Of a stretch of DNA of 64,000 bases, positions 56,453 to 60,356 are shown piece by piece; position 1 is the stretch's first letter; every line of letters begins with the position of its first letter. Made by a program: the position numbers and the translations under genes. The stretch lies in contig NZ_QHLX01000004.1 in NCBI RefSeq assembly GCF_004135675.1, forward strand, positions 62,001 through 126,000, read 5' to 3'. The DNA comes from Marinitoga lauensis (GTDB lineage Bacteria > Thermotogota > Thermotogae > Petrotogales > Petrotogaceae). The notes under the pieces were generated by a model. That model saw only the letters and a list, made by a program, of their open reading frames with translations, ran no database searches and was not told where the DNA came from.

Positions 56453-57769
56453 TTGAAAAGATTGTTTGGAACTGATGGCATTAGAGGCTTGGTAAATGAA
56501 GAATTAACTGTAGATCTTGTTTATAAAATAGGAAATGCACTTGGAAGAATGTATAGTGGAAAATACAAAAAATTATTAATAGCAAGAGATACAAGAAATT
56601 CAGGAGAAATGATTGAAGCTGCACTATCAGCTGGAGCTCTATCTGCCGGTTTAAATGTTGAATTTTGTGGAGTAATTACAACACCAGCATTGGCTTATCT
56701 TACTAAAAGCGAAAAAACATTAGGGGTTATGATCTCTGCGTCTCATAACCCTGCTAATTATAATGGTATAAAAGTTCTGGCCGAAGGCTTTAAAATTTCA
56801 GATGATGATGAAATAGATATAGAAAATTTAATTCTGGAAAGGGAACCTGAATATGTTCCATACGGTGAAATTGGAAAGATGACTTCTTCACATTTAAAGG
56901 ATAAATACATAGGATATATAATTTCTGAATATGAATTAAATAATATCCCTTATAAAATTGCTATAGACGTTGGTCATGGTTCTACAGGTGCTCTAATAGA
57001 TAGAATATTCGACACCTTTAATCTAAAATATGATGTATATTTTAATGAACCCAATGGTTTAAATATCAATGAAAAATGCGGTTCAATTCACCCAGATGTT
57101 TTAGCTAATATTATCAAAAATGATGGTTATGATCTTGGAATATTATTCGATGGTGATGGAGATAGATGTTTATTTATAGATAAAAAAGGTAATCTAATCG
57201 ATGGAGATAAATTGATGGCTATTAATGCGTTAAAATTAAAAGAAAAAAATAGATTAAAAAACAACATGGTTGTAGCTACTATTATGAGTAATCTAGGATT
57301 AGAAAAATTCCTTGAAACACATGATATTAAACTCTGCAGAACAGCTGTCGGAGATAAATATGTCCTGGAAAAGATGTTATCTTCCAATGCTAAATTGGGA
57401 GGAGAACAATCTGGTCATATAATTTTTCTCGATAAAGCTACCACGGGTGATGGAATAATAACAGCATTGGAAACTTTAGAAACTTTATTATATTTCGGAC
57501 AGGATATCACTAGTCTAACAAAAAAGATACCTGAATATCCTCAATTATTAAAAAATGTTTCTGTTAAAAATAAAATAGCTGTTATGGAAAATAAAAAATT
57601 GAAGAAAGTTATTGACGAATACACATCTCTCCCAAATTTCAGGCTGGTCGTAAGGCCTTCAGGAACAGAACATAAAATCAGAATAATGGCAGAAGGAGAA
57701 GATAAAAAATTGGTTCATACTGTAGTTAATGAACTATATGAAATGATTGAAGAAATAGATAGATATTAA
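56453..57769 (+). CDS. glmM: phosphoglucosamine mutase
   Basis: Interconverts glucosamine-6-phosphate and glucosamine-1-phosphate for peptidoglycan and UDP-GlcNAc synthesis. The 438-residue protein has FGTDGIRG, the active-site phosphoserine loop ISASHNPA, metal-binding DGDGDR, GGEQSGHI and the phosphate-binding RPSGTE. GGAGGTG stands before a TTG at 56453; the upstream GTG is inside the Shine-Dalgarno. The last 182 bp are part of the 292-bp duplication caused by the insertion element downstream, but this copy is complete. Confidence 0.93.
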   Translation: MKRLFGTDGIRGLVNEELTVDLVYKIGNALGRMYSGKYKKLLIARDTRNSGEMIEAALSAGALSAGLNVEFCGVITTPALAYLTKSEKTLGVMISASHNPANYNGIKVLAEGFKISDDDEIDIENLILEREPEYVPYGEIGKMTSSHLKDKYIGYIISEYELNNIPYKIAIDVGHGSTGALIDRIFDTFNLKYDVYFNEPNGLNINEKCGSIHPDVLANIIKNDGYDLGILFDGDGDRCLFIDKKGNLIDGDKLMAINALKLKEKNRLKNNMVVATIMSNLGLEKFLETHDIKLCRTAVGDKYVLEKMLSSNAKLGGEQSGHIIFLDKATTGDGIITALETLETLLYFGQDITSLTKKIPEYPQLLKNVSVKNKIAVMENKKLKKVIDEYTSLPNFRLVVRPSGTEHKIRIMAEGEDKKLVHTVVNELYEMIEEIDRY

Positions 57770-57800
57770 ACAAATAAGCGCTTTGCGCTTATTTGTTTAA
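57766..57800. terminator. bidirectional terminator after glmM (left copy)
   Basis: A 16-bp stem (TTAAACAAATAAGCGC and its complement) with TTT loop, overlapping the glmM stop. Confidence 0.85.
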
Positions 57801-57879
57801 TACTTTAATTATTGATTTTATTACTTTATCAGAATCAAAAGGTTTAACAATATAATATGAAGCACCTTTTTCTACTGCT
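57789..57879 (-). pseudogene. 3' fragment of the CheY-like gene (duplicated)
   Basis: Encodes only the last 29 or so residues (AVEKGASYYIVKPFDSDKV...) of the regulator at 59997-60356. It arose as part of the target duplication and is cut off by the insertion element. Confidence 0.9.
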
Positions 57880-58017
57880 CCTGAGTTTGACAGCGATTTC
57901 ATGATTTTTGAAAAATCGAAACGGTAGAATGCGGGTTTGCGACGATGAAAAGGGTGAAAATTGGGGGTTGAAAAATTTTTGTAGTGACACAAATATTTTT
58001 AACAATAGCGTTATATT

Positions 58018-58071
58018 CTTGATTTCATAATATTTTTGTGGTATAATAAGTAATGGTATTATGAAATCAAG
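58018..58071 (+). promoter_or_regulatory. transposase promoter inside an inverted repeat
   Basis: 15-bp arms CTTGATTTCATAATA (58018-58032) and its complement (58057-58071) flank a promoter: TTGATT (58019-58024), 17-bp spacer, TATAAT (58042-58047). The right arm abuts the GAGGTG ribosome-binding site (58071-58076). A transcript from the element's own promoter would contain only the right arm; read-through from outside would form the hairpin and mask translation. Confidence 0.6.
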
Positions 58072-58082
58072 AGGTGATTTTT

Positions 58083-59689
58083 GTGTTTTTGAGAGTAGTT
58101 AAAAATAACAAAGGTGTTGAATATTTAAGAATTGTTGAAAGTTATAGGGAAAATGGTAAGATAAAGCAAAGAACTGTTGCAAACTTAGGAAGGATTGACT
58201 CTTTTAGCGAAAATGAAGCGAAAAATATAGTAAATAAACTCATACAAATATTTGATTTAAAAAATTATATTGATACAGAAGATATAAAAAAGGCACCGGA
58301 TAAAAAGAATTACGGAGCCAAAGTAATAGTAAATAAGATATTCGAAAGATATGAGATGAAAAGATATTTTGAAAGACTGGATAAAGAAATAAAATACAAT
58401 GCAGAAGAGATGCTAAAAATAATGGTGATGAATAGAATAGTAGAACCGAAAAGTAAATTGGGAATATTTAATAATTTAGAGTATTTTGGATATAACAAAG
58501 TGGAAGTTAAAAAAGAAAAAGACCTGGAAGAAAAAGATGTAATGCTGCACTGGTTATACAGAACATTGGATATATTGGCAGATAATAAAGAGTCGATAGA
58601 AAAACATATGTATAATCAAAGGATAAGTTTGTTTAATACAACGGTAGATTTAGTATTTTACGATGTAACGACATTAGCGTTTGAAACACAACAAACAAAT
58701 GAAATATTACAAATGGGATATTCAAAAGATAAGAAATTTAATGAATCACAAATAGTATTAGGGATGTCAATAGATCAGGATAGAATGCCAGTTAGTTTTG
58801 ATATATATGCAGGAAATACATTTGAAGGGCATACATTTAAAGATTCAATAGAAAAAATGAAAAAAGAATATCAATTAGGAAAAGTAATAGTAGTAGCAGA
58901 TAGAGGAATGATGAGTAAAAAAAATATAGAAGTAGTAGAAAATTCTAATTATGAATTCATAGTAGGAAAATCAATAAAACAAATAAAAAAAGTAAATATA
59001 TTTGAAGGAGAATTCATAGAACTAGCAAAAGGAATAAAATATAGAGAAGTAGAATATGAAAATAAAAGATTACTCATAATATATTCAGAAGAAAGAGCCA
59101 AAAAGACAGAGCAGATAGACTACGATTAATAGAAAAAGCGAAAAAAATGTTAGAAGAAGGAAATATAGATTCAAAAAGTAAAAGAGGAGCGAAAAAATAT
59201 TTAAAAGAACAGAATAAACAAAATTATATACTGGACATAGAAAAAATAGAAAATGATGAAAAATACGATGGATACTATGGAATAATAACAAACACAAAAC
59301 TATCTCCAAAAGAAATATTAGAACAATATCATACATTATGGAAAGTAGAAGAAACATTTAGAACATTAAAAAATTATCTTGAAACAAGACCGGTATTTCA
59401 TTGGACACCAAAAAGAATAAAAGGACATATTGTAATGAGTTTCATATCTTACATAATTCAAAGAACACTAGAATTAGAACTGGAAAAAAATAATGTTGAA
59501 TACTCTCATGAAAAAATAAGAGAAGCTATTAAAAATATGGAATACATTGAATTTAAAACACAAAAGCAACATCTTGTAGCGAGAATGAATTTAAATAAAT
59601 TAGGACAAAGAATATTAAATACATTAAATATTCCTGTACCAAAAATAATTTCACCCTATACAGAATTCAAAGAAAAATATAAAATTTAG
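58083..59689 (+). CDS. IS1634/IS4-type DDE transposase (frameshifted)
   Basis: About 535 residues. Starts at GTG 58083 behind GAGGTG: MFLRVVKNNKGVEYLRIVESYR, the usual opening of IS1634-type transposases. The catalytic region has VFYDVTTLAFE (first Asp), VVADRGMMSKKNIE (second Asp) and a C-terminal YHTLWKVEETFRTLKNYLETRPVFHWT (Glu, YREK-like). The frame breaks at 59100-59104; one missing A joins both parts. It is the only gene of the element. Confidence 0.88.
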
Positions 59690-59795
59690 GGGGTGTAATG
59701 ACACTTTTGTATTTAATAAAAAATTAACAATTGTTGTTTTTTAGAATAATTCTGCTTTTTAGAATTTTATTGAAAAAAATACTGTCAAACTCAGG

Positions 59796-59977
59796 AAAAT
59801 AAAAAATTGAAGAAAGTTATTGACGAATACACATCTCTCCCAAATTTCAGGCTGGTCGTAAGGCCTTCAGGAACAGAACATAAAATCAGAATAATGGCAG
59901 AAGGAGAAGATAAAAAATTGGTTCATACTGTAGTTAATGAACTATATGAAATGATTGAAGAAATAGATAGATATTAA
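59796..59977 (+). pseudogene. 3' fragment of glmM (duplicated)
   Basis: The last 60 codons of glmM (including RPSGTEHKIRIMAEG) up to TAA 59975-59977, without a start. A product of the insertion event. Confidence 0.9.
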
Positions 59978-60008
59978 ACAAATAAGCGCTTTGCGCTTAT
60001 TTGTTTAA
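59974..60008. terminator. bidirectional terminator (right copy)
   Basis: The same 16-bp stem as at 57766-57800. It now terminates the CheY-like gene on the minus strand. Confidence 0.85.
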
Positions 60009-60356
60009 TACTTTAATTATTGATTTTATTACTTTATCAGAATCAAAAGGTTTAACAATATAATATGAAGCACCTTTTTCTACTGCTTCCAAAACACGCA
60101 TCTTATGACCAAGAGCAGTTACCATAATAATTTTAGCCGAAGGATCAAATTTTAATATTTCTGTCAACGCTTTTATCCCATCCATAATCGGCATTGAAAT
60201 ATCCATCGTAACAAGATCTGGCCTATGTTTTTTATAGATTTCAACTGCTTCTCTACCATCTGAAGCTTCATATATATCAAAATTCAACGGTTCTAATATT
60301 AATTTCAGCTGATTTCTAATAAAAGGTGCATCATCTGCTATAAGGATTTTAGGCAT
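59997..60356 (-). CDS. stand-alone CheY-like response regulator
   Basis: A single receiver domain of 119 residues: acidic pair in ILIADDAPF, phospho-acceptor Asp52 in LVTMDISMP, Thr in MVTALG and Lys in VKPFD. There is no output domain, so it acts by protein contact (for example on the flagellar motor or a kinase). Its ATG overlaps the stop of the histidine kinase (TAATG), so they are a pair. Its 3' end lies in the insertion-element target duplication but is intact. Confidence 0.9.
   Translation of the reverse strand: MPKILIADDAPFIRNQLKLILEPLNFDIYEASDGREAVEIYKKHRPDLVTMDISMPIMDGIKALTEILKFDPSAKIIMVTALGHKMRVLEAVEKGASYYIVKPFDSDKVIKSIIKVLNK

Follow-up and report, generated by a model that had tools for sequence, protein, structure and literature searches.

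A recent 292-bp target duplication by an IS1634-family insertion sequence in Marinitoga lauensis, and the two unlike target cuts of its genome-wide copies

The stretch analyzed here, referred to as the window, comprises 64,000 nucleotides of Marinitoga lauensis (contig NZ_QHLX01000004.1, positions 62,001 to 126,000). In it, glmM and a convergent gene for a CheY-like response regulator are separated by a 1,916-bp insertion sequence (IS), which we call element A, bracketed by two direct repeats (DRs) of 292 bp (Table 1). The first-pass annotation of this DNA had described such an element with 14-bp inverted repeats and identical DRs, and a base-by-base comparison bears this out: the two DRs are the same at 292/292 bases with zero mismatches, and the inverted repeats are 14 bp and perfect. 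A repeat tool gives 294 bases, because the two bases preceding the left DR match the last two of the element by chance. An exact duplication of 292 bp would be well beyond chance. As had also been claimed, both genes and the terminator are preserved around the insertion, with an intact glmM kept to the left of the element and an intact cheY-like gene to the right.

Table 1. Features of the element A insertion, in window positions
Feature	Position	Strand	Evidence or remark
Left copy of 292-bp target duplication (glmM 3' end, terminator, cheY 3' end)	57588-57879		identical to 59796-60087
Right copy of 292-bp target duplication	59796-60087		identity to left copy
IS1634-family element A, 1,916 bp	57880-59795	+	among 13 copies with both ends located in the genome
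Left inverted repeat, CCTGAGTTTGACAG	57880-57893	+	flank ending ..TACTGCT, outward AGCAGT, a "G-type" cut
Right inverted repeat	59782-59795	-	flank starting AAAATAAA, the A-tract cut
glmM, whole, 441 aa	56444-57769	+	NCBIfam TIGR01455
glmM 3' remnant, duplicated, inside right DR	59796-59977	+	repeat identity
CheY-like response regulator, whole, 119 aa	59997-60356	-	open reading frame and family matches
cheY-like 3' remnant, duplicated	57789-57879	-	reads in one frame with IS sequence (67-aa frame, 57789-57992)
Terminator-like hairpin, left copy, 18-bp stem, 3-base loop	57764-57802		stem search
Terminator-like hairpin, right copy	59972-60010		repeat identity
Transposase, first frame piece	58074-59129	+	NF033559 positions 1-296
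Transposase, second frame piece	59147-59689	+	NF033559 positions 323-482

The transposase of the window copy is split into two frames, which had not been noticed earlier. Both pieces score above the curated NF033559 cut-off of 100 bits (217.5 and 149.7 bits, with whole-frame copies reaching up to 385 bits), in agreement with the earlier reading of the element as IS1634-like, and Pfam DDE_Tnp_1 matches are found in the pieces, the second below the Pfam cut-off. A DDE catalytic triad, a long N3-C1 spacer, and an altered YREK motif are regarded as traits of this family. A sister copy at locus L031 has a single transposase frame of 538 aa, and a 541-codon frame is open at six A loci. Relative to the A consensus, the window copy has no substitutions and three gap columns, so its transposase break may be either a genuine indel or an error in the sequence. 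In several copies, among them the window copy (58074-59689), small indels set the sequence apart from the consensus, with substitutions few or absent; sequencing errors left uncorrected in the assembly could account for this.

The length of 1,916 bp and the CCTGAGTTTGACAG ends agree with the IS1634 family as tabulated in PMC2266710 (1,500-2,000 bp, ends C-----YT). The same source gives DRs of 5-6 bp as the family norm, and long, variable DRs (8-514 bp by copy) for IS1634 and IS1549; the 292 bp found here fits this alternative and not the norm. The earlier statement that IS1634-type elements make long duplications is therefore right for IS1634 and IS1549, but fails as a rule: ISGka5 and ISPfe2 are described as producing 6-bp DRs (PMC8024623, PMC3281130), and we read 6-bp DRs by eye at two copies in G024, a genome of the sister taxonomic family. 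Since long variable DRs were already known for IS1634 and IS1549, the window copy alone is ordinary. In a 14-row transposase tree, A, its sister element B, rows from G005, G015, and G012, and two Turicimonas rows group apart, with support of 91/91 and a long-branch warning. The A and B rows were realigned before tree building, the other rows include short-DR relatives with IS1634 and IS1549 left out, and DR length is established for five of the seven grouped rows (not G005a and G012). Judged by its predicted protein and ends, the window element is an IS1634-family DDE element, and we would file it in a long-DR branch of that family.

That the insertion itself produced the duplication is shown by empty sites in related genomes and by controls within this genome. 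We searched 21 genomes of the taxonomic family, six of them of the same genus, and in 6/6 congeners glmM and the convergent cheY-like gene are adjacent, single copy, and element-free, with matched ends 25-79 bases apart. An empty site with the repeat already present, which the first-pass annotation had named as the finding that would overturn its view, occurs in none of these six. In this genome, two of the A copies are inserted into B elements: the DR of one (about 551 bp) is made entirely of B sequence, and that of the other (415 bp) contains 78 bases of B and the remainder from adjoining sequence. Similarly, of the three rRNA operons found, two each contain a B copy, the DRs being 204 and 167 bp (23S, 5S, tRNA, and 16S named by Rfam), and the third place, identified by its 98.8% match to the same block and not by Rfam, has the same terminator and no element. 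The window DRs are thus a true target duplication, and their identity indicates a recent insertion, as had been proposed.

A first scan of the genome contigs using one transposase piece returned no relatives. The genome-wide search for element ends that the first-pass annotation had recommended found both ends of 13 A copies and 25 B copies. Two B copies on contig C6, a contig with an inverted repeat, have the same flanks and DR as a copy on C15 and were dropped, leaving 36 distinct insertions; three single A ends near contig ends and seven B ends that were interrupted or had no usable partner were also left out. DRs are present at 34/36 insertions (13/13 for A, 21/23 for B), range from 28 to 1,302 bp with a median of 209.5, and stop at the element edges in 34/36, one with a mismatch at its first base. 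Because of small indels, ten DRs were missed or appeared mismatch-rich in ungapped comparison, and gapped alignment gives these 98.2-99.8% identity. No phasing of DR length at 9.5-12 bp was detected among the 34 DRs. The longest DR, ~1,302 bp at L053:5093 (contig C8:22592), holds two whole open reading frames (ORFs) of 157 and 137 aa, which are thus duplicated complete. Of the two insertions with no DR, L055:5238 adjoins an 801-bp inverted fragment of another B, and the left flank of L047:5528 is in repeated sequence.

Long DRs are also found beyond A and B. Relatives in the same taxonomic family have DRs of 105 bp (G015) and 154 bp (G012). Turicimonas muris, which belongs to another phylum than the host, carries two IS1634-like elements whose proteins are 26-29% identical to that of A, and DRs of 114-808 bp are present at 9/9 of their loci. 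In the congener G005, two inverted IS1634-like copies (L149:3817-14949) enclose ~7 kb in which, by eye, ABC-transporter-like and other transposase-like frames are seen, and the outer flanks share an exact direct repeat of 166 bp, which resembles the outcome of a composite transposon inserting with a long duplication. At L046 (C15) and L048 (C6), successive B copies or ends are separated by the same 116-117-bp DR, and C6 reads as a large inverted repeat of such units; this arrangement may be due either to recombination between DRs or to an assembly artefact. As for the relationship of the two elements, 11 of 20 alignment blocks of 100 columns between A and B, forming the core, are 95-100% identical, and the outer parts differ. 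In a comparison of A at L031:4716-6630 with B at L050:5053-6983, the near-identical core stands beside differing transposase N-terminus, C-terminus, and inverted repeats, and this mosaic structure suggests module exchange.

Our analysis of the target bases shows that the two cuts made by these elements are unlike. Read outward from the element, the flank is an A-tract at one IS end and (A/T)G at the other. A G at outward position 2 is found only on the left in 17 insertions, only on the right in 8, on both sides in 0, and on neither in 9 (Fisher p=0.0027, this genome); with Turicimonas added, the counts become 21, 11, 1, and 10 (Fisher p=0.0006). Across both hosts, 33/43 insertions have one G-type end with an A-rich partner, compared to 21.9 under random left-right pairing, and the partner of a single G-type end has at least three A in its first four bases in 32/32 insertions. 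The G-type end may be either the left or the right element end, with the left commoner (17 vs. 8), and the polarity of the cuts is that which gives a duplication in 34/36 insertions. Two Turicimonas DRs entered the end-base and ORF-break tests as 814/782 rather than 808/781 bp, by which their end letters are unaffected.

The A-tract cut (A-cut) is, in addition, associated with hairpins. Perfect hairpins whose stem reaches 8 or more occur in 17/34 DRs, compared to 1.7 (sd 1.2) in random stretches of equal lengths, and much of this excess reflects gene context: with gene context matched on a modelled empty site, hairpins anywhere within the DR number 18/32 against 6.9 expected (n=32 in these counts, two of the 34 DRs being without assignable polarity). 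Position relative to the cut is more specific. Hairpins starting at most 30 bases from the A-cut, inside the DR, are found in 12/32 (2.0 expected when context-matched, 1.88 in repeat), those at most 30 bases on its outer side in 0/32, and those at most 3 bases away in 5 (0.90 expected). At the other cut, there are 2 hairpins inside (0.90 expected) and 2 outside (0.43 expected). The two insertions into rRNA operons, on C7 and C9, have their A-cuts at one and the same terminator base and their second cuts at different places; removing one of these two insertions leaves 11/31 at the A-cut vs. 1.75 expected. In this genome, the A-cut of this element group therefore lies at terminator-like hairpins more often than under a gene-context-matched null.

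Long DRs in this genome go together with a sparing of genes. We counted breaks of ORFs of at least 90 codons and compared them with random placement using the same DR lengths. An ORF is broken by 5/34 insertions, as opposed to 19.9 (sd 2.8) for random placement at the same lengths and 28.0 (sd 2.2) with 6-bp DRs. At least one cut is within an ORF at 24/34 insertions, and in 19 of those 24 the genes are kept whole by the DR. DRs spanning two convergent 3' ends, the type seen in the window, occur 6 times vs. 0.4 expected, and spans of a 3' with a 5' end 0 times vs. 4.4. In Turicimonas, ORFs are broken in 4/9 (4.8 expected), which is no sparing, and gene sparing is therefore not a general rule. 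The "general advantage" that the first-pass annotation had considered possible for this mode of transposition thus applies to the present genome, is absent in Turicimonas, and is partly explained by the choice of hairpin targets. The contributions that DR length, the choice of site and, probably, selection make to sparing here are not fully separable, and long DRs may spare genes as a side effect of their length together with the choice of hairpins and selection.

Target polarity was also compared with the direction of replication. Raw GC skew proved to be dominated by gene strand as a replichore marker, and was replaced by third-position skew with a gene classifier (leave-one-contig-out accuracy 0.81, 582 genes). 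Polarity agrees with fork direction in 15/19 loci by the first assignment, 18/25 by the refined one, and 14/18 of the best-resolved loci; composition alone predicts 0.469, and the link is significant in this genome under several data cuts. The orientation of the IS relative to replication is not significantly biased (20:14). Coding strand does not explain polarity (9:9 strict, 11:13 loose) and was rejected.

On the one hand, DRs of normal polarity that are long and free of phasing, with unlike cuts and with a first cut shared by two insertions whose second cuts differ, fit ordered and uncoupled strand transfers better than a fixed stagger. We consider it somewhat probable (roughly 0.6) that two unlike, uncoupled, ordered strand transfers account for the long DRs. 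In such a process, the first IS end would capture an A-tract or a hairpin site, in the latter case at the outer base, leaving the hairpin within the DR. The second IS end would attack (A/T)G on the opposite strand, later, farther off, and at a variable distance, and host synthesis from both target 3'-OH ends would then copy the intervening stretch. With host copying between cuts that are late and distant, DR length would be a waiting distance rather than a fixed stagger. In this genome, we tentatively suggest that the site would most likely be offered while the hairpin strand is single, e.g., as lagging-strand template. A transposase of the IS1634 family has been described to bind the beta clamp (PMC4549789). 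A more detailed version, about which we remain doubtful, is that insertion uses two sites in two steps: an A-tract anchor, preferably the 5' base of a terminator hairpin while single-stranded (lagging-strand template near the fork), followed by transfer of the second end to an opposite-strand (A/T)G, possibly via contact between transposase and clamp, so that DR length would reflect the extent of strand opening at the moment of the second transfer. Of this mechanism, the unlikeness of the two cuts is what the data show; we infer the rest, including the order of the steps, and the physical basis is unproven.

On the other hand, several observations weigh against ordered, uncoupled transfers. 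In Turicimonas taken by itself, whose 9 copies are too few for such a test, the end asymmetry does not reach significance (p=0.21), and the hairpin link there is a plain count of 1/9 even allowing a 7-bp stem. The hairpin test was exploratory, having been designed after viewing the data. Two insertions, L055 and L047, have no DR (2/36). Agreement of polarity with replication in Turicimonas is 3:4 strict and 4:4 loose by hand tally, or 21:11 for both hosts together; with no reproduction in that host, replication direction is kept as a lead, and the 3:4 led us to reject it as a general cause of target polarity. The window copy itself has a polarity contrary to replication direction, and its hairpin is within the DR but 176 bp from the A-cut.

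Other explanations of the long DRs have to be weighed against these same observations. Ordinary paired strand transfer, by a single transpososome that loops or wraps the target, would bring the cuts near to each other in space and would attribute their asymmetry to an asymmetric target pocket. The normal 5' stagger polarity in 34/36 insertions with no proven deletion speaks for it, and the pocket of one end may prefer A-tracts; however, it sits poorly with DR lengths that run from 28 to 1,302 bp without helical phasing, and with the two rRNA operons that share the first cut and differ in the second, and we regard it as unlikely. We think it distinctly unlikely that the target is instead linked to transcription, with the strands parted where a transcription unit ends, by an R-loop or a stalled polymerase, and the IS ends attacking both borders of the opening. 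In its favor are the hairpins at the A-cut, the excess of convergent spans containing both 3' ends, and the insertions in 2/3 rRNA operons; also, of the 12 insertions with a hairpin at the A-cut, 7 have their other cut within a gene, and this gene is transcribed toward the hairpin in 7/7. Yet coding strand makes no overall prediction of polarity, the A-cut in the rRNA operons lies upstream of the rRNA terminator, and Turicimonas shows neither gene sparing nor more than 1/9 hairpins.

It is very improbable that the repeats are older host duplications or products of rearrangement into which the element arrived by recombination. The two insertions that lack DRs do appear rearranged, but this is 2/36; the single copy in 6/6 congeners refutes this origin for the window site, the nested-element and rRNA controls speak against it elsewhere in the genome, and DRs end at the element edges in 34/36.

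Comparison with known systems places the unlike cuts in context. IS1634 of Mycoplasma mycoides subsp. mycoides SC and IS1549 of Mycobacterium smegmatis are of the same family and share long, variable DRs with the elements described here (PMC2266710). They differ in their hosts, and here DRs extend to 1,302 bp, two sister elements are found side by side, and the target is asymmetric with hairpins at one cut, for which our literature search found no report. ISGka5, ISPfe2, and IS1634-1 of Acidiphilium are in the same family, but have 6-bp sequences at their insertion sites (PMC8024623, PMC3281130, PMC4549789). IS elements that enter REP palindromes (PMC1525189) have a palindromic extragenic target in common with A and B; those are described as inserting into REP repeats, whereas here a hairpin goes with only one of the two cuts, and the position of the other varies. 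Among the literature matches listed, taken by titles and the starts of abstracts and with most subscription papers outside, we recognized no report of terminator anchoring or of the mechanism. A survey from 2008 (PMC2266710) states that the long, variable DRs of IS1634 and IS1549 were still without a proposed mechanistic model.

With 34 measured DRs in one genome, an asymmetry pattern also present in a distant host, and a pair of insertions with a shared first cut, the question of long DRs is now testable. The differing end preferences of sister copies are a new handle on this puzzle, with one end often at a transcription stop signal. For the organism, our findings show that an IS can spread through a genome at little gene loss, and that single insertions are able to duplicate whole genes, such as the two complete ORFs within the 1,302-bp DR.

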